The notes beneath the pieces were generated by a model, which was given only the letters and a program-made list of their open reading frames with translations, searched no databases and was not told the origin of the DNA. This document shows, piece by piece, positions 4,158-23,523 of a DNA stretch of 64,000 nucleotides. Source of the DNA: a bacterium. GTDB taxonomy: Bacteria; Acidobacteriota; Polarisedimenticolia; Polarisedimenticolales; Polarisedimenticolaceae. Both the position numbers and the translations under genes were made by a program. The stretch spans positions 1 to 64,000 of the forward strand of contig JAAELQ010000317.1 in the NCBI GenBank assembly GCA_024226515.1, given 5' to 3'. Each line of letters starts with the position of its first letter. Within the stretch, counting starts at the first letter, position 1.

Positions 4158-4655
4158 TTACCCCTCCGCGGGGGGCAGCGAGCCCAGGATCGACTCGACG
4201 ACGACGTCGATTCCGGGCGAGGCATCCACCCGGACATCGGCCAGCGCGTAGGTGGCACGCCGGCGCTCGAAAAGTTCCCGGAAACCATGAGGGTCCGCCT
4301 CCCACAACGGACGCGAGGCCCCCTCCCCTACCCGCCTGCGCGCGATCTCGGGGAGGACGTCGAGCCAGACGGTGGTCGCGAGGCGGCGCAGCCGGCGCCG
4401 GTTGCCCGCTGCCGCGTACAGCCCACCGCCGGCGGCCACCACCAGATTCGAGCGGCCCTCGAGCGAGCGCAGGACCTCCCGCTCGAGCTCGCGGAATCTC
4501 TTCTCGCTCGAGCGGCGGAAGATCTCCGCCACGGGGCACCCCTCGCGCTGCTCCACGAGGGTGTCCGTGTCGGCGAAATCCCAGCCCAGCCGGTCCGCCA
4601 GCGCCCGGCCGACCGAGGACTTGCCCGAACCCATGAAGCCGACGAGGACGATCAT
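4158..4655 (-). CDS. aroK: Shikimate kinase
   Basis: The 165-residue protein is typical in length for shikimate kinase, which phosphorylates shikimate in the chorismate pathway. The P-loop GFMGSGKSSVG is at residues 6-16, the substrate-binding DTD is at 29-31, the AAGGG shikimate-binding motif is at 74-78, and an SRPLW lid sequence follows in the C-terminal half. The ATG at 4655 is chosen because it begins directly at the P-loop strand and overlaps the upstream gene stop (ATGA). It is the last gene of a leftward operon. Confidence 0.95.
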   Translation of the reverse strand: MIVLVGFMGSGKSSVGRALADRLGWDFADTDTLVEQREGCPVAEIFRRSSEKRFRELEREVLRSLEGRSNLVVAAGGGLYAAAGNRRRLRRLATTVWLDVLPEIARRRVGEGASRPLWEADPHGFRELFERRRATYALADVRVDASPGIDVVVESILGSLPPAEG

Positions 4656-5071
4656 TCGAGGAACCCCTCGAGCCGCTCGGGTGTGGGCCACACCGCCCCG
4701 GCGACGATGACCTGCGTCGCGACTCCAGCCAGCGCCTCGGGCCGTCCCGACAGCGTGAAGGCGATCCAGCCCAGCGCCGCGATCGAGGTGGCCAGCCCGC
4801 TCGCCGCCAGATTGGCCTGCTCGAAGACGCGGACTCGCGCGGCGGGGTCCGTCTCCGCGGCGGGCCGGTCGCGCAGGTAGAGATAGGTCCTGTAGCCCAG
4901 CACCGGACTCACCAGGCCCAGCAGCATCGCCGGCATGACCAGGAACGAGGCCCGTACGCCACCGGCCAGCCAGACGCTTGCCGTCGTCAACAACAACACG
5001 ACGACCGGCGGCAGCCCGACGATCAAGCGCCCGCGAACCAGCGCGCGCTCCACCGACGGGTCGAGGCTCAT
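4652..5071 (-). CDS. Small integral membrane protein, function unknown
   Basis: The 139-residue product has three or four hydrophobic stretches: around residues 15-35, 43-60 and 92-130. I do not recognise a family. It is overlapped at both ends by ATGA junctions, with the DUF1684 lipoprotein gene upstream and aroK downstream, so it is surely translated as part of this operon. Its role cannot be inferred from context, since the neighbours act in DNA repair and aromatic synthesis. Confidence 0.75.
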   Translation of the reverse strand: MSLDPSVERALVRGRLIVGLPPVVVLLLTTASVWLAGGVRASFLVMPAMLLGLVSPVLGYRTYLYLRDRPAAETDPAARVRVFEQANLAASGLATSIAALGWIAFTLSGRPEALAGVATQVIVAGAVWPTPERLEGFLE

Positions 5072-5727
5072 TGCGCCACGGTTTCCTTGAATCCACGTTC
5101 GCCGGCAGCGATGCGAACGCTCAGACGGTTCTCGGGCGGGGTGCGCGGGCAGGCGAAGCGATCGACGTCGCCGTAGGCGCACGACGGATTGTACGCGGAG
5201 TTGAAGTCGAGCACGTAGGGTCCGCCCTGCGCCCCGACCAGGTCGACGTAGCGTCCCGCGGGATACGTCTCGGTGCCCGTCGTTGCATCCATGAACGGCA
5301 GGAAGAACCCTCCGGCGCCGTCGACGAGATGGTAGACCTGCAGACGTTGCGCGCTGCCGTCCACGGTGAAGTCGACCCACCCGACCTTGTCGCACTCGCG
5401 ACTCTGCCCCGAGGTCGTGACGATCGTGAACCGTTCGGGCTGCGCATACAAGCTGACGTGTCCGCCGAAGTGGAACCGTTCGTCGGGCTCCCAGTGATCC
5501 AACCCGGCGAACCCCGCTCGATCCTCCTCCGCCAGCGGCGAGGTGGGATCGTCGCGGAACCAGTCGTTCTTGGATGCCCGGTCTCGCTCGAGCGAGGCCT
5601 GCCAGCCTCGCGGCGGATCGAGCCGGATCAACCCTTCGGGCGGCGCCGTGCGGCAGCCGACCGCAACTGCCGCGGCCAGCACGACCGCAGCGATGGAAAG
5701 TCGTTTCGTAGTTCGCATGTTCACCAT
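5068..5727 (-). CDS. DUF1684-type lipoprotein
   Basis: This protein of up to 219 residues begins with a basic-hydrophobic signal ending in AVAVGC, a plausible though not ideal lipobox. The mature part matches the DUF1684 family: GHVSLYAQPERFTIVTTSGQ-like and YPAGRYVDL segments, then DFNSAYNPSCAYGD and RFACPRTPPEN near the C-terminus. DUF1684 proteins are of unknown function. The start may be the ATG at 5727, which overlaps the helicase stop, or the ATG at 5718. Its stop overlaps the next start by four bases. Confidence 0.85.
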   Translation of the reverse strand: MVNMRTTKRLSIAAVVLAAAVAVGCRTAPPEGLIRLDPPRGWQASLERDRASKNDWFRDDPTSPLAEEDRAGFAGLDHWEPDERFHFGGHVSLYAQPERFTIVTTSGQSRECDKVGWVDFTVDGSAQRLQVYHLVDGAGGFFLPFMDATTGTETYPAGRYVDLVGAQGGPYVLDFNSAYNPSCAYGDVDRFACPRTPPENRLSVRIAAGERGFKETVAQ

Positions 5728-8700
5728 TCGACCGGCACGCGGACCGTGCGCTCGGAGTGGTCACGGTACAGCAGGTAGCCCCGTTCGCGCCCCAAATCGA
5801 ACAACCGTCGCGTCAAGTCTACGTCCTTCTTACAGTACTGCTCGATCAGGTCGATCCGACCCTCCTTCCACCACTGCAGGCTCTGCAGCCCGTCGGCGGA
5901 CTTCGACTCCCCGAGATTGACCTCGCACAGGTGGGCCAGCGAGATGCGGAACCCCAGCCGGCCGTGGATGTCGCCGAGCAGGTCGAACGTGCGGATGCGA
6001 TCCAGGTCCCACTCGGTGTAGGCCGAGAGCACCGTCAGATCGAAGCGGTCGAGGTTGAACCCGATCACGCGGTCGGCCATGACCAGGTCGAGCAACAGGC
6101 TCTTCACGTCCGCCTCGTAGTAGGTGCGGAACGCCCTGCGGCCGGTGTCGTAGGTCACCGCGAGGCCCAGGCGCATCTTGTCCGTGTTGGCCCACCCCCC
6201 GACCTCGTCGGCGCTGTACTGGGTCTCGAGGTCGAAGACCAGCGTGCGTTCGCCGTTGCTCGGGCGCGGTGCCTCCGCGACGCGGGGCGCGGCCTCCGGC
6301 GGACTGTCGAGCGCCGCCTCCCGCGCCGCGCGGGCCTGCTCCGGCGACAGGTTCCCGGCTCGCGAGACGCCGTGACGCGACGCGGGCGGATCTGTGGGGT
6401 CGTCCGCGGGCGGAGCGGAGGGGCGGCTCCGCGGCGGCGCTTCCGGCGGCGGCGGGAAGGGCGCGAGACGCTCCGGTTCGCGCTTCGGCGCCGGCCGGAC
6501 GCCGATCTCGTCGAGCGTCCGCTCGCCGGCCAGCAGGCGCAGGGTCAGCAGCGCCGCCTCCTTGTCGAGCGGCTTGTTGCCGTTGCCGCACTTGGGCGAC
6601 TGGATGCAGCCCGGACAGCCGTCCTCGCACGGGCAGTTCGCCACCAGCTCGAGCGTGCGGCCGAGCAGGTCCTCGAGATCGCGGAAACCGTGCTCGGCCA
6701 GCCCCGCACCGCCCGGAACACCGTCGTAGACGAAGATCGCCGGTCCCCCGGTCTGCGGGTGGCCGGTGTAGGAGATGCCGCCCACGTCGTCGCGATCGGC
6801 GATGGCCAGCAGCGGGAACAGGCCGATCGTCGCGTGTTCGGTGGCGTGAATTCCGCCCATGAAATGCAGCTCGCGTTCCGCGTATGCGGCCGACACTTCC
6901 GGGGGAAGCTCGATCCAGAATCCGGTGGTCTCGAAGATCAGCGGCGGGACCTCGAGCGGGTGCACCGAGATCGACTCGCCGTCGAACAGGCGCTTCTTCT
7001 GATACTCGCGAATGCGCACGGTGACCTTGAGTCGGCCCAGGCCGACGACGAACGGGCCGAGGTTCTTCGTCGCCCTGCGCTCGAGGATCTCGGTCTCCTT
7101 GTCGCCCAGCACGACGGTGTAGTAGTCGACGCGGGCCGCAACAGCGGTCACGCGACGGCGCTCGGCGTCGAGGTCCAGGACGGCGTAGGACTGCCCACCA
7201 TGCAGGTAGACCGCCCCCGGGTGACACTCGTGATACACACGGCGGGCATCGACGCTGCCGAGCAGCTTCCCGTCGCGCTCGACGATGCTGAACGGCTCTC
7301 CGCTCGAGCGCGGGCTGACGTCCCGGTGCGGATTGCGCCGGAAGGCAAAGAAGCGTTCGCCGTCCGCGTCCTGGACCAGGCGCCCTTCGTGGGCCAGGTC
7401 CCGCGCCAGCGAATCGAGAGCGGCCCGATCGAGCTCTGCCCGGGTCAGCGGCTCTTCGGATGCCGCACAGACCAGGTGCCGCCCCGCGACGAACGGGTTC
7501 TGGGGATCGAGCACGGCGCGCTCGAACTGCTCGCCGAAGAACAGCTCGGGGTGGCGCACCACATATTGATCGAGCGCGTCGGGCAGCGCGATCATCACCA
7601 CCAGCCCCGCCCTGGAGTGACGTCCGACGCGCCCGATGCGCTGCCACGACGAGATCAACGAACCGGGATACCCCACGAGCAGGCACACGTCGAGGCCGCC
7701 GACGTCGATGCCCAGCTCGAGCGCGCTCGTCGAGAGCACGGCGGACAGGTCGCCCCGGAACAGACGCGCCTCGAGTCGCCTGCGCTCTTCGGGCAGGTAT
7801 CCCGCGCGATACGGGGCGACTCGTCGGGCCAGCTCGGGCTGTTGACGGACGAGCCAGGCGTAGAGCAGCTCGGTGACCCGGCGTGCCTTGGTGAACGCGA
7901 TCGTCCGCAGATCGGCGTTCATCGCCTCCGCCAGGACACGCACCGCGACCGTGTACGGCGAGACGCCGACCGGGTTCAGGAACACGACGTCGCGCGCGGC
8001 ACGCGGCGCACCGGACTCGGCGATGACGTCGAACGAGCGACCGACGAGCGTCCGCGCGAAGTCGGCCGGGTTGCCCACGGTGGCCGACGCCGCGATGAAG
8101 CGAGGCTCCGATCCGTACAGCCGGCAGACCCGCTGCAGGCGCTGCAGGATGTGGTGCACGTGGGTCCCGAACAGGCCGCGATAGACGTGCAGCTCGTCGA
8201 GGACGACCCAGCGCAGGTTCCGCAACAACCCCTCCCAGTCCTGATGCCGCGAGAGAAGCCCCATGTGCAGCATGTCGGGGTTGGTGATCAGCGCGTCCGG
8301 GAGATCGGCCTTGATCTTCTTGCGACGCGCCTGCGGCGTGTCGCCGTCGTAGATCTCGAATCGCGGGGGTCGCAGCGCCCCGAGCGAGCCGGCCAGCGAA
8401 CGGAATCCGGAGAGCTGGTCCTGAGCCAGGGCCTTCGTCGGATAGAGCAACAGCGCCTTCGAGCCGGGCTCCTCGATGAAGGACTCGAGCAACGCCGTGG
8501 CGAACAGCAGCGTCTTCCCGGAGGCGGTAGGCGTCACGACCAGCACGTCGCGCCCGGCGCGCACGCTATCCACTCCCCGGGCCTGATGCTCGTACAGACG
8601 TGCGAGGCCGAGCGACTCGAGCCCCTCGGCCAACCGCGTGGGAAACGGTCGCTGCGGCTCGCCGAAACACGCAGGCGAGCCTTCCAGGCGCCGATGGTGC

Positions 8701-8756
8701 GACACCATCGCCCCCAGAGTCGGATGCTGCATCAGATGTTCGACGAACTCGCGCAT
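5721..8756 (-). CDS. MrfA-type DEAD/DEAH helicase fused to a DEDD exonuclease domain
   Basis: The 1011-residue protein starts at the ATG at 8756 (MREFVEHLMQ). Motif I TPTASGKT is at residues 75-82, motif II reads DELH, and the C-terminal RecA domain has GRVGRHSRAG. A cysteine cluster, CPCEDGCPGCIQSPKC, lies near residue 706 as in the DUF1998 region of MrfA. A proline-rich linker (about 735-835) leads to an RNase H-like exonuclease domain with FDLET, GFNLDRFD and YCKKDVDLT, matching the DEDD motifs of MrfB/YprB. In Bacillus subtilis MrfA and MrfB are separate proteins that remove mitomycin C lesions without UvrABC. Here one chain would do both. An upstream in-frame ATG at 8829-8831 is rejected because the sdh promoter overlaps it. 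Confidence 0.88.
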   Translation of the reverse strand: MREFVEHLMQHPTLGAMVSHHRRLEGSPACFGEPQRPFPTRLAEGLESLGLARLYEHQARGVDSVRAGRDVLVVTPTASGKTLLFATALLESFIEEPGSKALLLYPTKALAQDQLSGFRSLAGSLGALRPPRFEIYDGDTPQARRKKIKADLPDALITNPDMLHMGLLSRHQDWEGLLRNLRWVVLDELHVYRGLFGTHVHHILQRLQRVCRLYGSEPRFIAASATVGNPADFARTLVGRSFDVIAESGAPRAARDVVFLNPVGVSPYTVAVRVLAEAMNADLRTIAFTKARRVTELLYAWLVRQQPELARRVAPYRAGYLPEERRRLEARLFRGDLSAVLSTSALELGIDVGGLDVCLLVGYPGSLISSWQRIGRVGRHSRAGLVVMIALPDALDQYVVRHPELFFGEQFERAVLDPQNPFVAGRHLVCAASEEPLTRAELDRAALDSLARDLAHEGRLVQDADGERFFAFRRNPHRDVSPRSSGEPFSIVERDGKLLGSVDARRVYHECHPGAVYLHGGQSYAVLDLDAERRRVTAVAARVDYYTVVLGDKETEILERRATKNLGPFVVGLGRLKVTVRIREYQKKRLFDGESISVHPLEVPPLIFETTGFWIELPPEVSAAYAERELHFMGGIHATEHATIGLFPLLAIADRDDVGGISYTGHPQTGGPAIFVYDGVPGGAGLAEHGFRDLEDLLGRTLELVANCPCEDGCPGCIQSPKCGNGNKPLDKEAALLTLRLLAGERTLDEIGVRPAPKREPERLAPFPPPPEAPPRSRPSAPPADDPTDPPASRHGVSRAGNLSPEQARAAREAALDSPPEAAPRVAEAPRPSNGERTLVFDLETQYSADEVGGWANTDKMRLGLAVTYDTGRRAFRTYYEADVKSLLLDLVMADRVIGFNLDRFDLTVLSAYTEWDLDRIRTFDLLGDIHGRLGFRISLAHLCEVNLGESKSADGLQSLQWWKEGRIDLIEQYCKKDVDLTRRLFDLGRERGYLLYRDHSERTVRVPVEW

Positions 8757-8887: not shown

Positions 8888-9565
8888 ATGCGCGGCACCA
8901 CGAGCCTCATCGGCTCGTCCGTGGGCAAGAAGATCGTGATGGGGCTGTCGGGAGTATTGCTCTTCGGCTTCGTCATCGGTCACATGATCGGCAACCTCAA
9001 GGTCTACCAAGGCGCCGAGAAGTTCAACGCCTACGCGGAGTTCCTACGCGAGGCGGGGGCACCGATGCTGGGGCACGGCCAGGCGCTGTGGATCGCGCGG
9101 CTCGTCCTGCTGGCCTGCGTGGGAATCCACATCGCGGCTGCCGTGCAGCTCGCGGTCGCCAGCAGTCGCGCCAGGAAGACGCGCTACAAGAAGTTCGACG
9201 ACCTGTCGTTCAGCTACGCGTCGCGCACGATGCGCTGGGGCGGAGCGATCATCACGGCGTTCGTGATCTACCACATCCTGCATCTGACGCTGGGAACCGT
9301 GCATCCGGACTTCGAGCACGGATCCGCCTATCAGAACCTCGTGGCCGGGTTCCGCGTCTGGCCGGTCTCGGTCGTCTACATCCTGTGCATGTTCCCGCTG
9401 GGTCTGCACCTGTATCACGGCCTGTGGAGCCTGACCCAGACGCTGACGCTGGACCATCCGCGGGTGAAGCAGTACCGGCGAGTCGCCGCCGCCGTCCTGG
9501 CGGGCGTCGTCGTCGTCGGCAACGTCTCGATCCCGATCTCGGTGCTGACCGGGATCGTGGGCTGA
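8888..9565 (+). CDS. sdhC: Succinate dehydrogenase cytochrome b558 subunit
   Basis: The 225-residue protein is a five-helix cytochrome b of the type B succinate:quinone oxidoreductases, as in Bacillus, Bacteroides and actinobacteria. Histidines placed in helices (GHMIGN near residue 41, GIHIAAA near 80, YHILHLT near 128, HLYHGLW near 178) are the likely ligands of two haem b groups. It anchors SdhA and SdhB to the membrane and passes electrons to quinone. It is the first gene of sdhCAB and starts at the ATG after CTGGAG. No separate sdhD is present, as expected for this type. Confidence 0.93.
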
Positions 9566-9575
9566 TGAGGTCGGT

Positions 9576-11485
<1,910 letters not shown>

Positions 11486-16776: not shown

Positions 16777-19700
16777 CTACGGACAGGGTCGGGTATTCGG
16801 CCGCTCGACCCCGGATCCGTCCAGGCCCAGCGATCCCTCTCCGCCCCCGCCGGTCCCGCTCACCAGGTAGAACACGATGTCGCCGGCAGGCGGCTCGTAG
16901 GCGTCCGCCGCCGCGGGGGAGAGCAGGCCACAGAACTGCGCGGCGTTGGCCGCGACGGGATCCTGCGTGTATTCCCCGGTGTCCTTCAGCACCTGCAGGT
17001 CGCCACGGTACATGTTGAACCCGGTGTACAAGATGTCGCCCTGCCAGACCTGCGACGTCTCGGTGACCTCGATGAACAGCAGCAGGCCGTCGTCGAGATC
17101 GCACGCGTCGCCCTCGGTGTCCTGATCGATGTCGGACTGCGGCGGGTTGTAGGCCGCCACGCAGTTGTCGCAGATGTCCCCCACGTTGTCGACGTCGGCA
17201 TCGGCCTGACCCGGGTTGTCCACGGCCGGGCAGTTGTCGCACGCGTCGCCCAGCAGGTCGGCGTCGGCGTCGGCCTGGCCCGGGTTCGCGCTCTGCGGAC
17301 AGTTGTCGCACGCGTCGCCCAGGCCGTCCGTGTCGGCGTCCTCCTGGAGCGGGTTGTCCGTAAGATCGCAGTTGTCGCAGGCGTCGCCGAGCGCGTCCGA
17401 GTCGCCGTTCTCCTGCCCTGGGTTGAATACCGTGGCGCAGTTGTCGAACATCTGACTGCTCACGATCAGCGTCGGGACCAGGATCAGGTCGTTGGCCGAC
17501 GTGCCGATCTCGTTCCACACACCGATCGCCAGCACGTTGATGCCCTCGACGAGGTGCGGCAGAGCCTCCGTCGAGACGTCGGCGAACTCGTACACCGGCG
17601 CGGGGGCGTTGCTCGACTCGTGCGGGATGGGCGTCGTATCCCAGTCGGGGTCGACCCCGACGGGCATCCCCGGCGAGCGATAGATCTCCTCGCCGTTGAT
17701 CCAGGCCACGACGCCGTCGTCGTAGTCCAGGCCGAGCAGCACGCTGGCCACGGAGCCCGCCCCGTTGACGGTGAACTCGGTGCGCGTGTACACCGAGCGC
17801 GACCCGCTGGCCACGCTCGTCTCGAGCAACTCGGATGCGCCGCCGCTGGCCATCTCGAAGCCGATGCCGTACGCGCCGGTGCTCCAGCCCGCGTCCTCGA
17901 AGTCCGTCTCGACCCAGGTGATCCCCAGCCCGGGCGAGGCCGAGTTGGCCAGGTACGAGACCTCGCCGGAGGAAGTGCGATCGAGCGCCAGGCGCGGGGC
18001 GACCAGCAGGTCGTCCGCCGTCACGGCGTCGAAGTTCCACACGCCGACCGCCAGCACGTTCTCCCCCTCGTGCAGGGCGCTCAGCGCCGCCACTGTGATG
18101 TCCTCGTACGGCGCGTAGTCGGCGCTGCGCCCGTTGCTGGACTCACGGTCGATCAGCGAGTTCGTGTTCCACGCGGTCGGTCCCGCGGGCACTCCCGCCG
18201 AGCGATAGACCTCGATGCCGTTGATCCAGGCCACGACCGCGTCGTCGTAGTCGATGCCGAGTCCCACGTCGCGAATCGCGTAAACGTTGTCGATGTCGAA
18301 ACGGCTGCGGGTGTAGACCGAGAACGTCCCCGGCAACACCGAGGTCTGAATCAGGCTCTCGGCTCCGACGCCGGCCTCGTAGCCGATGCCGTACCAGCCC
18401 TGCGCCCACGAGCTGTCGTCGAAGCCCTCCTGCATCCACAGCGCGTCGACGCCGGAATCGTCGGTGTTGGCCAGGTAGCTCACCCGCGGCGCGCGGTTCA
18501 TCGACAGCCGCGGGACGAGCACGAGATCGGAGGACGCCGACTGACCGCCCTGGTAGTTGTACACACCGATGGCGAGGACGTTGTCGCCCTGCACCAGCTG
18601 CGGGATGACCTGCGAGACGTCGACCTGCGGTTCGTAGTTCGGCACCGCGCCGTTCGACGAATCGCTGACGCTCGGATCGGTGTCCCACGTCGGCACACCG
18701 GCCGGGATCTCCGGCGAACGGTAGACCTCGACCCCGTTGATCCAGGCGATGTAGCCGTCGTCGTAGTCCGCGCCCAGGTACAGGTTCTGCACCGAGGCCG
18801 GATCGTCGATCGTGAAGTGCGTTCGGGTGAAGATCGAGATCGTCCCGGGGGCGACCTCGGTCTGCAGCAGGGTTCTCGCGCTATTCGGCTCGTCAGCCTG
18901 GTCGTAGCCGATGCCGAACGTCCCGCTGATCCACGAGGCGTCGTTGTAGCCCGGCGCGATCCAATCCTGGCCGATGCCGGGGTCCGACGTGTTCGGTCGG
19001 TACTTCATCGCCGCGCCGAACTCCACGAGCGTGACGTCTTCCGCCGCACCGAACCCGACAAGCTCGATGTCGCTGTTCGACGGCTCGACGACGGTTCGCG
19101 TGTCGTCGCACACGCCGTCGGCGTCCGAGTCGGGATCCTCGGGGCACGGATCGCACGCGTCGCCCAGACCGTCGGCGTCCCGATCCGGCTGCAGCGGGTT
19201 GTCGGTGAAGATGCAATTGTCGTCGACGTCTTCGATCGAATCGTTGTCGTCGTCGGAATCGCAAACGTCGCCCTCGGCGTCGCCGTCGTTGTTCTCCTGG
19301 CCGGAGTTCGACATGCTCGGGCAGTTGTCGACGTCGCCGCAGACTCCGTCGTCGTCGATGTCGTTGTCGAAGTCGAGCGGACAATCGTCGCACACGTCGC
19401 CGAGACCGTCCGAGTCCGAATCCGTCTGATCGTTGGGCGTTGCCGGGCAGTTGTCCTCGGGGCAGCTGTCGGCATCGATCCCCGGATCGCCGAATCCGTC
19501 GCCGTCGCTGTCGGTGCACGGATCACAGGCATCACCCGGTCCATCGCCGTCGGTATCTTCCTGCCCCGTGTTGGCGTCGTCGACACAGTTGTCGCAGATG
19601 TCCTCGACCGTATCGGAATCGGTGTCGATCAACTGCGGCCACTGCGCATCGTCGCAGTCATTGCGCAGGTCGTCGCAGATCTCCGGCGCGCCCGGGTAGA

Positions 19701-22700
19701 TATCGGCGTTCGTGTCGTCGCAATCCAGCCCTTCGGGCGGCGCGCACACGGTGTCCAGGTCGAGGTCGAGCACCTCGCTGCATCCCGGCAGACGGAAATC
19801 GGCCTCCTCCACTCCCCGCACCGGGACGGCCAGCCAGCGGCTGACCGAGGCGTAGGGCAGCGACACCGGGTCGTAGTGCAATCGAACGCGCCAGTGGAAG
19901 ATGCGCTCCACCGGTCCCAGCCCGGTGACGACCTCGCTCAACTCGACTCCGTTGAGGCCGGTCGCGCTCCACGACGGGGCGATCTCCGTTCCCTGCGCGT
20001 CGAACAGCGTGCCGAGAGGCTTGACCTCGTACTCCAGCCGCACGCGCCCCGCGCCGAACGGCGTTCGGCCCAGCGCGGCCAAGCGCACGCTGTCCGCGCT
20101 GTCGGAGGCGCCCAGTCGTTCGAGCGGGGCCGTGTCGTCCACACGCCGCTGCTCGGGACGCAGCGCTAGCCCCGGCCTGCCTCCGCCGTAGTACAGCACG
20201 GCGCTACCCTCGTCGACGAACAGTCCGTTCCACAGGAACGAGCCGATCACGATGTCGGCGTAGCCGTCGCCGTTCACGTCCCCGGCCCCCGCCAGCGAGA
20301 AGCTGAGCTGCTGGTCGTCCTGCGTGCCCGTGACCGACCAGCTGGGCTGGGTCGACAGGCCCGACGCCGAGCCCGGGTAGAGCAGCGCTCGTCCGGTGTT
20401 CGGATCGCCGACAACGTCCCAGCTATACTGTCCGACCAGCGCGTCGGCATAGCCGTCGCCGTTCACATCGCCGGCCGCGGCGACCGTGAATCCGTATTCG
20501 GAGAAGACCTGCTCTCCGGTCACGGTCCACACGGGCGTGGTCGCGAGACCCGAAGCGGATCCCAGATAGGCGTCGGCTCGCCCCTCGTTGGTCGTCGTGT
20601 TGTCGTAGAGCGGTGCACCGACGATCACGTCGCTGTAGCCGTCGCCGTTCACGTCGCCGAGACCCGCCACGCCCTTTCCGGCCTCCGCTCCGACCTGATC
20701 ACTCTCGCCGATCCAGTCGGCGCTCGCCGAAGGCCCGCCGGCGCTGCCGTGGAACACGAAGGCCGCGCCCTCGCCCACCTGACCGTTGCCGTACAGCGGG
20801 ACTCCGACGATCACGTCGGAGAACCCGTCGCCGTTCACGTCCCCGGCGGATCCCACCTTCCATCCCAGGTTGGCGTTGGGCTGGTTGCCCTCGGCGGTCC
20901 AGATCGGGTCCGTTGCAGGACCTGCGACACCGCCGGCCCAGACGTACGCCCGACCTTCCTGGGTCTCGCCGTTGTCGTAGAGATACGCCGAGCCGATCAC
21001 GTCGGAGAAGCCGTCGCCGTTCACGTCTCCGGCGCTCTCGACGGAGAAGCCGAGCTGCGCGTCGAGTTGGTCCGACTCGGTGGTCCACATCGGGCCCGCA
21101 ACCACGCCCGAGGACGACCCGGCGAAGACGTAGATCCTCCCCTCGCCTACCTCGCCGTTGCTGTACAGCGGAGCTCCCACGACGAGATCCGAATAGCCGT
21201 CGTTGTTCACGTCGCCGGCAGACGCTACCGAGAAGCCGAAGTTGGCCCCCGCCACGTCGCTCTCGATGATCCAGTCCGGCGCCGTGTCGATCCCGGCCGC
21301 CGAGCCGCCGAAGACGAAGACGGCGCCTTCCGATGCCTCGCCGTTGTCGAACAACCGCGCACCGACGGCCACGTCGGCGTAGCCGTCGCCGTTCACGTCC
21401 CCGGTCGTGTTGACCGAGTAGCCGAACTGCGCGCCCTGCTGCCCACCCTCGGTGGCCCACCCGGCCGCGTCGGACAGACCGGAGACCGAACCCTCGTAGA
21501 CCCACGCACGGCCCTGGCCGTCGATCGTGTCGTCGTACATCGGGGCGCCTACAATGATGTCCGCGAACCCGTCTCCGTTGACGTCGCCCGCGGTGGAGAC
21601 CGACGTGCCCAGCAGGGCATCCATCTGATCGGACTCGACGGTCCACGTCGGATCCGCCGTCAATCCCGTCGGGGTCCCCTCGAAGACGAAGGCTCCCCCC
21701 TCGTCGATCTTGCCACCCGTGCGAAAGCCCGGAGCGCCGATGATGACGTCGGCCAGGCCGTCGCCGTTGATGTCGCCGGCCGTGGAGAGAGAATAGCCAA
21801 ACTGTGCGTCGCTCTGGTCCGGGGCGTAGGTCCAGTCCTCGGTCGTGTCCGGCCCCGCGGGGCCGCCGAGGTAGAGAGACGCCTGCCCTGCGGCGAGGAA
21901 CATCGTGTTGAAGCTGACCGCACCGACGAGCACGTCGGCGTAGCCGTCCGCGTTCACGTCGCCCGCCGTGGAGACGGCGTTGCCGAAACGAGCCTCGAAC
22001 AATTGATCCGCCTCGACGAACCAACTCGCGGAGGCCTCGAGCCCCGAGGCCGAGCCGAGGTAGATGAACGCGGCGCCCTCGTCGATCTGGCCGTTGGTGA
22101 ACCCCGGCGCACCGACGATCAAATCCGAGTATCCGTCAGCGTTCACGTCGCCCGCGGCCGACACGGCGCGCGCGTACTCGCCGCCGCCCTGGTCGCCCTC
22201 GCCGACCCAGTCGGCCGTGGCCGACGGACCGGACCCCGAGCCATGGAACACGAAGGCGACGCCCTCGTTGGCCTCGCCGTTATCGTAGAAGTAGGCCCCG
22301 ACGACGATGTCGGAGAACGCGTCGCCGTTGACGTCGCCCAGCGTCGAGACCGCGGTACCGAGTTGCGCCCCGACCTGGTCGGCCTCGAACTGCCACGTCG
22401 CAGTCGTCGACAGGCCGGATGCCGAGCCGAGATAGACGTACGCCGCGCCCTCACCGCTTTCGCCGTTCTCGTACTGCGGGGCGCCGACGATCACGTCGCT
22501 GTAGCCGTCGCCGTCGACGTCGCCGGCGGTCGCGAGGAACTCGCCGAACCGCGAGAACGGCACGTCCGACTCCAGCGTCGCCGCCGCCGTCGCCGACAGG
22601 CCCGCCGCACCGCCCTCGAAGACGTATACGCGGCCCTCGTTGACCTCGCCGTTGTCGTAGCCCCAGGCGCCGACGACCACGTCGCTGTAATGGTCCCCGT

Positions 22701-23523
22701 TGACGTCGCCGGCCGTCGAGACCGCGACGCCGAACCGCGTGAGGTTCTGATCGCTCTCGGCGAACCAGGTCGGGCTGGTGGTGAGCGGGTCGATCGTCAG
22801 CGGATAGAGCGCATCGCGGTCGTCGACGATGAGCCGAATGCTCGCACCACGCGCGCCGGCGACAATCTCCACGCGCGCCGGCAGGTCGCGCTCCAGCGCG
22901 TCCCATGCCCGCAGGTCGGAGTAGCGCAGCACTCGCGCGCCCTTGGAGGAGAAGAACTCGACGCTGCGCTCGTCGATCGGGCGAGCCTCGAGATCGCCCG
23001 CGATCGCCATCTCCACCAGCACGTCGCCACGGACGTCCGCGCCGTTCGACGGCGGCTCGTGCAACACGAAACCTTGCTCGAGCCCGCGGCTGTCGTTGAC
23101 GTACCACTCGGTCAACGGGCCCCGCCGATACTCGATCCGGTTTTCGTCGGCGTGCAGCACCGGCGGCGGCGCAGCCACGAGCGAACCGGCACGGCCGAAC
23201 GCCGTCAGCGAGAGTGCCCAGCTCCAGGCCGGTTCCGTGTCGGGTGCGCTGCGCGGGACCACGCGGATGCCGTCCTGGGCGAAGTAGGTTCGCAGGTCGT
23301 GCGCACGGTTCGGAGCGTGCCATGCGGAGTCGAGTCCCGCGATCCGGGTCCTCGTCTGCCACGTCACGTGGTACTCCGAGTCGGCGATGTCGCGTCGTAC
23401 GCGGTCCCACCACGAAGCGTCGACGTCCGTCGTGGACGGCGGAGTCTCGGCCCGGAGCGGCGTCGCGCCGTACCCCGATACCATCGCCAGCAGAACCAGA
23501 GCGCATCCGAACGTTCGGCGCAT
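16777..23523 (-). CDS. Giant secreted FG-GAP / thrombospondin type 3 repeat protein
   Basis: The 2248-residue protein starts with a signal peptide (hydrophobic residues about 6-24, cleavage near LRAE). Residues about 258-1108 hold 14 FG-GAP repeats of the form DVNGDGYSDVIVGAP, each with a calcium-loop DxNxDGxxD pattern; fourteen blades would make two seven-bladed propellers. A MopE-like metal-binding motif (DCDDTNADIYPGAPEICDD) follows near 1265. Asp-rich thrombospondin type 3 repeats (DNCP..NPGQ..D.DG.GDACD) occupy about 1295-1471 and again 2023-2145. Between them are three similar modules of about 165-175 residues with DYDDGxxAWINGxEVYRS, which look like jelly-roll binding domains. It is probably a calcium-stabilised surface or matrix adhesin. 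No sortase motif or PEP-CTERM is seen. Confidence 0.88.
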   Translation of the reverse strand: MRRTFGCALVLLAMVSGYGATPLRAETPPSTTDVDASWWDRVRRDIADSEYHVTWQTRTRIAGLDSAWHAPNRAHDLRTYFAQDGIRVVPRSAPDTEPAWSWALSLTAFGRAGSLVAAPPPVLHADENRIEYRRGPLTEWYVNDSRGLEQGFVLHEPPSNGADVRGDVLVEMAIAGDLEARPIDERSVEFFSSKGARVLRYSDLRAWDALERDLPARVEIVAGARGASIRLIVDDRDALYPLTIDPLTTSPTWFAESDQNLTRFGVAVSTAGDVNGDHYSDVVVGAWGYDNGEVNEGRVYVFEGGAAGLSATAAATLESDVPFSRFGEFLATAGDVDGDGYSDVIVGAPQYENGESGEGAAYVYLGSASGLSTTATWQFEADQVGAQLGTAVSTLGDVNGDAFSDIVVGAYFYDNGEANEGVAFVFHGSGSGPSATADWVGEGDQGGGEYARAVSAAGDVNADGYSDLIVGAPGFTNGQIDEGAAFIYLGSASGLEASASWFVEADQLFEARFGNAVSTAGDVNADGYADVLVGAVSFNTMFLAAGQASLYLGGPAGPDTTEDWTYAPDQSDAQFGYSLSTAGDINGDGLADVIIGAPGFRTGGKIDEGGAFVFEGTPTGLTADPTWTVESDQMDALLGTSVSTAGDVNGDGFADIIVGAPMYDDTIDGQGRAWVYEGSVSGLSDAAGWATEGGQQGAQFGYSVNTTGDVNGDGYADVAVGARLFDNGEASEGAVFVFGGSAAGIDTAPDWIIESDVAGANFGFSVASAGDVNNDGYSDLVVGAPLYSNGEVGEGRIYVFAGSSSGVVAGPMWTTESDQLDAQLGFSVESAGDVNGDGFSDVIGSAYLYDNGETQEGRAYVWAGGVAGPATDPIWTAEGNQPNANLGWKVGSAGDVNGDGFSDVIVGVPLYGNGQVGEGAAFVFHGSAGGPSASADWIGESDQVGAEAGKGVAGLGDVNGDGYSDVIVGAPLYDNTTTNEGRADAYLGSASGLATTPVWTVTGEQVFSEYGFTVAAAGDVNGDGYADALVGQYSWDVVGDPNTGRALLYPGSASGLSTQPSWSVTGTQDDQQLSFSLAGAGDVNGDGYADIVIGSFLWNGLFVDEGSAVLYYGGGRPGLALRPEQRRVDDTAPLERLGASDSADSVRLAALGRTPFGAGRVRLEYEVKPLGTLFDAQGTEIAPSWSATGLNGVELSEVVTGLGPVERIFHWRVRLHYDPVSLPYASVSRWLAVPVRGVEEADFRLPGCSEVLDLDLDTVCAPPEGLDCDDTNADIYPGAPEICDDLRNDCDDAQWPQLIDTDSDTVEDICDNCVDDANTGQEDTDGDGPGDACDPCTDSDGDGFGDPGIDADSCPEDNCPATPNDQTDSDSDGLGDVCDDCPLDFDNDIDDDGVCGDVDNCPSMSNSGQENNDGDAEGDVCDSDDDNDSIEDVDDNCIFTDNPLQPDRDADGLGDACDPCPEDPDSDADGVCDDTRTVVEPSNSDIELVGFGAAEDVTLVEFGAAMKYRPNTSDPGIGQDWIAPGYNDASWISGTFGIGYDQADEPNSARTLLQTEVAPGTISIFTRTHFTIDDPASVQNLYLGADYDDGYIAWINGVEVYRSPEIPAGVPTWDTDPSVSDSSNGAVPNYEPQVDVSQVIPQLVQGDNVLAIGVYNYQGGQSASSDLVLVPRLSMNRAPRVSYLANTDDSGVDALWMQEGFDDSSWAQGWYGIGYEAGVGAESLIQTSVLPGTFSVYTRSRFDIDNVYAIRDVGLGIDYDDAVVAWINGIEVYRSAGVPAGPTAWNTNSLIDRESSNGRSADYAPYEDITVAALSALHEGENVLAVGVWNFDAVTADDLLVAPRLALDRTSSGEVSYLANSASPGLGITWVETDFEDAGWSTGAYGIGFEMASGGASELLETSVASGSRSVYTRTEFTVNGAGSVASVLLGLDYDDGVVAWINGEEIYRSPGMPVGVDPDWDTTPIPHESSNAPAPVYEFADVSTEALPHLVEGINVLAIGVWNEIGTSANDLILVPTLIVSSQMFDNCATVFNPGQENGDSDALGDACDNCDLTDNPLQEDADTDGLGDACDNCPQSANPGQADADADLLGDACDNCPAVDNPGQADADVDNVGDICDNCVAAYNPPQSDIDQDTEGDACDLDDGLLLFIEVTETSQVWQGDILYTGFNMYRGDLQVLKDTGEYTQDPVAANAAQFCGLLSPAAADAYEPPAGDIVFYLVSGTGGGGEGSLGLDGSGVERPNTRPCP
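17455..19010 (-). repeat. Three tandem jelly-roll-like modules (about 500-530 bp each)
   Basis: Within the giant gene three diverged copies lie near 18480-19010, 17955-18480 and 17455-17955. Each copy encodes the order W..xGFDDxSW, GIGY, LLQTSVxxGTxSVYTRxxF, DYDDGVVAWINGxEVYRS, ESSN and NVLAxGVWN. They are repeats at protein level with clear nucleotide similarity. Confidence 0.8.
20200..22760 (-). repeat. Fourteen tandem FG-GAP repeats (about 190 bp period)
   Basis: The phrase gccgttcacgtc (plus strand) or close variants recurs about every 190 bases through this stretch. It encodes DVNGDG on the minus strand. I count 14 copies of the blade motif by reading the translation. Copies differ by many substitutions, so this is an old protein repeat and not a recent DNA duplication. 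Confidence 0.85.

Follow-up and report, generated by a model that had tools for sequence, protein, structure and literature searches.

The window analysed here is a 64,000-nucleotide stretch of a genome of the family Polarisedimenticolaceae, phylum Acidobacteriota (assembly GCA_024226515.1, contig JAAELQ010000317.1, positions 1 to 64,000), and the gene considered encodes a protein in which a helicase of the YprA/MrfA family is joined through a linker to a DEDD exonuclease. The original prediction, made from the letters alone, had placed at 5721-8756 a single-chain fusion of two Bacillus subtilis proteins, the helicase MrfA and the exonuclease MrfB, and was silent on the strand; the coordinates proved right, and the gene lies on the minus strand. 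Its parts are as follows:

5721..8756, minus strand: whole gene, a fusion of a YprA/MrfA-type helicase and a DEDDy exonuclease, 1011 amino acids (start by alignment with relatives).
7521..8645, minus strand: helicase core (RecA1 and RecA2), approximately residues 38-412, with the Walker A motif TPTASGKT and the DEAH-type box DELH (PF00270, PF00271, YprA 6znp).
6588..6839, minus strand: MrfA zinc-binding domain (MZB/DUF1998) with the cysteine cluster, residues 640-723 (PF09369, E 1.8e-21).
6249..6524, minus strand: proline-rich linker, approximately residues 745-836, predicted to be disordered.
5724..6248, minus strand: DEDDy 3'-5' exonuclease domain (activity predicted), residues 837-1011 (confident model, fold matches, conserved residues).

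The frame is open already from 8831 and closes with a stop codon at 5721-5723; alignment of the fused protein with its relatives favours the ATG at 8756 as the start. Translation of 8756..5721 contains all of the motifs that had been quoted: TPTASGKT (residues 75-82), DELH (187-190), the MrfA-like cysteine cluster (708-723), the proline-rich linker between the two halves and, in the exonuclease, FDLET (841-845), GFNLDRFD (899-906) and YCKKDVDLT (974-982). The reading frame is real and far beyond chance, since it matches solved YprA at E 4e-134 and the MZB domain at the E-value given above, and since the two-domain layout is kept in many genomes.

Residues 1-745 were assigned by sequence to a YprA/MrfA-family helicase, with helicase activity predicted, and the MrfA-family membership proposed for the first 730 residues was borne out. 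In a search of the sequences of solved structures, YprA (6znp) matched residues 38-720 at E 4.2e-134, and the Pfam domains PF00270 (DEAD, E 4.9e-30), PF00271 (Helicase_C, E 5.7e-13) and PF09369 (MZB, 77.1 bits against a cut-off of 24.2) were all above their cut-offs. The NCBIfam model TIGR03817 (DECH_helic) scored 710.6 bits, under its curated cut-off of 874.1; the protein is therefore related to this subgroup model and belongs to the YprA family, yet lies outside the subgroup itself. RecQ models matched weakly (TIGR01389, 30.3 bits against a cut-off of 640.2), and the PADLOC matches were to other superfamily 2 (SF2) helicases known from defence systems, among which BrxHI scored highest (155 bits, residues 47-381). 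MrfA (YprA) of B. subtilis shares the helicase family and the MZB domain over the aligned residues 38-720, but it ends after the zinc domain and partners a separate MrfB, whereas the fused protein continues for about 290 further residues of linker and exonuclease.

The C-terminal 175 residues can be classed, on sequence and modelling, as a DEDD exonuclease of the DEDDy proofreading type, with activity predicted, and the domain did not fall outside the RNase H-like DEDD exonucleases, an outcome that would have told against the original prediction. Taken alone, the C-terminal 185 residues matched RNase_H_2 (PF13482) at 19.7 bits, below the cut-off of 22, and also DNA_pol_B_exo2 and DNA_pol_A_exo1, both below cut-off. 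Among 34 aligned fused domains, matches at E<=0.1 were obtained to PF13482 in 31 (best E 3e-9), to PF10108 in 32 (1.2e-5) and to PF01612 in 26 (5.1e-7). Invariant positions of this alignment include D16, E18, D80, Y148 and D152 (D842, E844, D906, Y974 and D978 of the protein), as well as an AxxVGGW motif directly after Exo I. The Exo III motif is Tyr-x3-Asp, which marks the domain as DEDDy. Across 59 fused sequences, the Exo I Asp is present in 58 (Asn in one), the Glu, the Exo II Asp and the Exo III Tyr in all 59, and the Exo III Asp in 58 (Asn in one); among 43 standalone relatives the Tyr is kept in 42, with one Ala, and the other positions are complete. Fourteen duplicate loci were excluded from these counts and from the exonuclease tree described below.

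An AlphaFold2 model of the exonuclease domain, built from five sequences, reached a predicted local distance difference test (pLDDT) of 90.2 and a predicted template modelling score (pTM) of 0.85. Foldseek ranked archaeal family-B polymerases and T7 polymerase at the top (best E 5.7e-7), and VIA-align gave Z 14.8-13.5 over 147-170 residues, all of the 50 matches listed being natural or engineered DNA polymerases. In a viral library the best match was the 214-residue protein H9C0I0 (E 2.5e-12), followed mostly by phage polymerases and exonucleases, and a profile search against Protein Data Bank sequences returned weak matches, the best to T7 polymerase at E 0.39. The predicted fold (VIA Z about 14) and the DEDDy site therefore resemble those of the exonuclease domains of family-B and T7 DNA polymerases, with the difference that the fused protein has no polymerase and carries the domain on a helicase. 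The solved MrfB core (8UN9) was not among the 50 matches listed by Foldseek or VIA-align, which is no evidence either way. The chain stops at residue 1011, right after the exonuclease fold, and lacks a C-terminal TPR domain.

Of the 60 genomes in the first set of relatives, 40 contain the exonuclease, and both domains share one frame at all 29 loci besides the window's own, so the fusion is one protein and not the frame error that the original prediction had allowed for. The frequency of the fusion, which it had left to a survey, was determined in four phyla. In the window's own phylum the exonuclease is matched in 90 of 396 genomes at E 1e-3, a number that falls to 71 at E 1e-40; 49 of these 71 are fused and 22 standalone, a copy being taken as fused where the helicase lies in the same frame at the fetched locus or an MZB match shares the frame. 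Five of the 49 fused frames are short (317-758 amino acids) but retain a portion of the helicase; four of them reach a contig end, and one (G037) is cut by a stop. No YprA helicase was seen within the several kilobases fetched around any of the 22 standalone genes, all of which were inspected. MZB was matched in 213 of the 396 genomes, and most YprA helicases of this phylum therefore lack the exonuclease. G021 was considered as a helicase without exonuclease and rejected, its contig ending just past the helicase.

The phylum of the delta proteobacterium NaphS2 was sampled with 345 genomes, of which 112 have an exonuclease match at E 1e-3 and 101 still have one at E 1e-40, and 96 carry the exonuclease in a frame of at least 940 amino acids; the helicase was found in frame in all 26 of these that were checked, the remaining 70 being counted by frame length alone. 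Six places with shorter frames comprise three with an in-frame helicase, one (G704) with a short helicase tail only and two standalone copies. Matches were present in 43 of 380 genomes of the phylum of a Chloroflexi genome (L051), none in a frame longer than 495 amino acids, and in 7 of 378 genomes of the phylum of Heyndrickxia coagulans, where four are strong and none of the four lies in a frame longer than 445. Named records also contain the fusion (L039, L040, L041, and L043 in part). In some groups of bacteria the pairing is frequent, and it has long been conserved as one protein.

Twelve of the 43 standalone exonucleases, all from the window's phylum (L090-L099, L114, L115), carry QLGLF, QMGLF, QLSLF, QMSLY or QRSLF shortly before Exo I, motifs that we take to resemble the bacterial sliding-clamp-binding consensus. 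The loose pattern occurs in 3 of the 59 fused copies, and the linker of the window's protein contains no clamp-like motif. Standalone relatives, approximately 30% identical, were also met on viral contigs (L055-L061), and a further standalone copy (L151) has two stops within the match. A Verrucomicrobia contig (L046) holds two adjoining YprA-type helicase frames (5851-8658 and 9534-10202).

In a tree of 76 helicases the 55 fused ones fall on one side of a single branch, with a Shimodaira-Hasegawa-like approximate likelihood ratio (SH-aLRT) of 90, and the Bacillota MrfA proteins stand apart from them, the nearest unfused sequence being L160; the sequences of this tree were picked by exonuclease or MZB matches, a choice that biases the tree towards a clean separation. 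The tree of 102 exonuclease domains requires four changes between the fused and standalone labels; in it L194 is placed among long viral branches, and two further sequences, L089 and the very long L109, lie inside fused groups. This tree does not decide the origin of the fusion, as it would be compatible both with one fusion followed by losses and with several fusions.

The account that we favour, with moderate confidence, is that the fused protein is a single-chain DNA-repair machine, in which a YprA/MrfA motor and a tethered proofreading-type DEDDy exonuclease excise lesion-bearing stretches. The motor would travel 3'-to-5' on one strand of damaged DNA and unwind the duplex, a polarity expected by analogy with MrfA and SftH. 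The exonuclease, held on the flexible proline-rich linker, would trim nucleotides from the freed 3' end, so that the stretch bearing the lesion would be excised as proposed for MrfAB, a single molecule here linking unwinding to degradation. According to the available part of the MrfB paper (PMC11194089), a free 3' end is placed by the nuclease site of MrfAB, and unwinding followed by excision is proposed; given the same expected polarity, the tethered exonuclease may fit this scheme in cis. By this analogy the fused protein may possess 3'-5' exonuclease activity coupled to its motor and may serve in repair, possibly in that of mitomycin damage.

Several observations weigh against this account. 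The exonuclease occurs without the helicase in other genomes, so it is able to work alone. The full-length model, built from four sequences, is poor (pLDDT 61.9, pTM 0.43) and gives no view of a contact between the domains; its pLDDT is low at residues 753-834, within a linker whose length varies among relatives. Nothing within the sequence indicates the target lesion. The separation of the nuclease from MrfB is also less than sharp: the MrfB structure is said to resemble DEDDy enzymes (PMC11194089, in the part available), the best single Pfam match among the 34 fused domains is to PF13482, a family matched by MrfB, and phrog_403, matched by all 34 fused members, is matched by MrfB about as well (window 1.6e-11; three control MrfB genes 2.5e-9 to 1.7e-11). 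As the controls match it about equally, phrog_403 was dropped as a separator and was not used against MrfB.

The main rival to lesion excision, which we regard as unlikely, is that the protein works at replication forks or in recombination in the manner of the human Werner helicase WRN, processing stalled forks instead. The pairing of activities is the same, an SF2 helicase of a 3'-5' family with a DEDDy exonuclease of proofreading-type fold in one chain, and the clamp-binding-like motif of some standalone relatives would suit such a role; the helicase, however, is YprA-type and not RecQ, as the low TIGR01389 score indicates. WRN itself has 3'-5' polarity and a RecQ-type helicase, and its DEDDy exonuclease is N-terminal, the reverse of the order found here. 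The WRN exonuclease is named in the available part of PMC11194089. Another single chain with a 3'-5' exonuclease and a helicase is SaDinG, the exonuclease-bearing DinG of Staphylococcus aureus, which, as far as the accessible text describes it, differs in having an XPD-like 5'-3' helicase and an N-terminal DEDDh exonuclease.

Still less probable is a true MrfA-MrfB fusion, in which a C-terminal MrfB had its His changed to Tyr and lost its TPR tail. The shared phrog_403 and PF13482 matches would support it, as would a preprint (PMC12458937) whose available part names YprA helicases fused to MrfB/YprB homologs. MrfB (YprB) of B. subtilis is, like the fused domain, an RNase H-fold DEDD exonuclease partnering a YprA helicase, but it is described in the available text of PMC11194089 as DEDDh (His258) with a TPR domain, and its relatives match PF13482 clearly, whereas the fused domain is DEDDy, about 175 amino acids long and under that cut-off. 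As controls, three separate MrfB genes located directly downstream of yprA (L045, L047, L054) were used. They carry DTETTGL, His-Asn-x-x-Asp and a long C-terminal part, which in L054 is matched by TPR families, and two of them score far above the window's domain with PF13482 (L045, 148 bits; L054, 129 bits). The DTETTGL stretch with its wedge leucine is invariant in the three MrfB, the corresponding stretch of the fused set being DxET and then AxxVGGW, and the Exo III residue is His in 3/3 aligned MrfB against Tyr in 59/59 fused copies. The fused-domain profile gave E 3.5 on L054, 9.9 on L047 and no match under 10 on L045, and hhalign of the fused domain against MrfB (three sequences on the MrfB side) gave a probability of 14%.

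Because Tyr replaces His, PF13482 stays below its cut-off, the TPR tail is missing and the profile fails to recover MrfB, the fused domain is to be read at the level of sequence as a relative of MrfB in the same superfamily but of a different family. Thus the exonuclease half of the original prediction stood as to DEDD class and fell as to MrfB identity. With a nuclease that is not MrfB, and with YprA-MrfB-homolog fusions already in print, the protein is no Rosetta-stone proof of the MrfA-MrfB pair, for which it had been put forward, but a second pairing of the YprA helicase family with a DEDD exonuclease. The sole PF13482 match over cut-off in the window's own genome is not MrfB. This match, on contig C231 (L009), lies in a long frame that combines an RNase_H_2 domain with a helicase part, presumably akin to the TM0106-type RecB/RNase H/helicase proteins.

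That the gene encodes an anti-phage defence helicase, many YprA relatives belonging to DISARM, Druantia, ARMADA or TALON, appears very improbable. The available part of PMC12458937 places the YprA family at the centre of several defence systems and gives TALON YprA proteins C-terminal RNase H-fold domains, but it reports these as inactivated, whereas the catalytic residues are intact in the fused domain. The nuclease types known from such proteins (inactivated RNase H in TALON; Vsr or PLD) were not encountered here. The scanned neighbours are housekeeping genes, among them purD, purE, a radical-SAM methylthiotransferase-like gene, a succinate dehydrogenase/fumarate reductase flavoprotein and EF-G, and unlike mobile defence genes the fused gene is kept throughout the class. 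A sequencing or assembly error joining two genes, for which no supporting point was found, is refuted by independent genomes with the same layout, namely the 29 relatives, all 20 of the genomes retrieved from a second phylum and the named records L039, L040 and L041.

The fusion itself is not new, as fusions of YprA helicases with MrfB/YprB homologs, which probably include the architecture seen here, are mentioned for the repair branch of the family in the 2025 preprint PMC12458937; what is new is the different nuclease type. For the fused YprA, the available part of that preprint states neither the nuclease class nor the distribution nor any standalone relatives, and a literature search, limited to open-licence papers and hence weak evidence, found no description of the DEDDy type, the wide distribution or the standalone relatives. 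A broader view, which we offer tentatively and hold at slightly less than even confidence, is that YprA-type repair helicases gained a 3'-5' exonuclease partner on two or more occasions: in one lineage the DEDDh enzyme MrfB, encoded by a separate gene, and in another a proofreading-type DEDDy enzyme of a different DEDD family, fused to the helicase. The latter would be a bacterial counterpart of WRN, and the standalone relatives, some perhaps tethered to the clamp, would make up a family of free proofreading-like exonucleases that is as yet undescribed. The fused protein shows that the YprA family can pair with different exonuclease types, and it places such a helicase-exonuclease pairing in many bacteria beyond Bacillota. 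The MrfB paper, in the part available, calls the role of the interaction with MrfA unknown and offers only a model (PMC11194089); a natural single chain with the activities expected of MrfA and MrfB would provide a stable complex in which the coupling of unwinding to excision could be studied structurally and kinetically.

Two genes follow the fused gene on the same strand:

5068..5727, minus strand: DUF1684 lipoprotein, start overlapping the stop of the fused gene (PF07920, E 4e-39).
4158..4655, minus strand: shikimate kinase, next gene downstream (PF01202, E 2.2e-35).

The overlap and the common strand agree, as far as sequence can tell, with the single operon that had been proposed for the three genes. 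Of 29 relatives, 10 have the lipoprotein and 8 the shikimate kinase beside the fused gene, within flanks of only 1.5 kilobases. Their conservation looks like housekeeping synteny, and they probably have no part in the mechanism. Elsewhere in the window, at 16777-23523 on the minus strand, a frame of 2248 residues contains repeats, recognised by eye, that resemble FG-GAP and calcium-binding thrombospondin type 3 repeats, and it probably encodes a large secreted protein.

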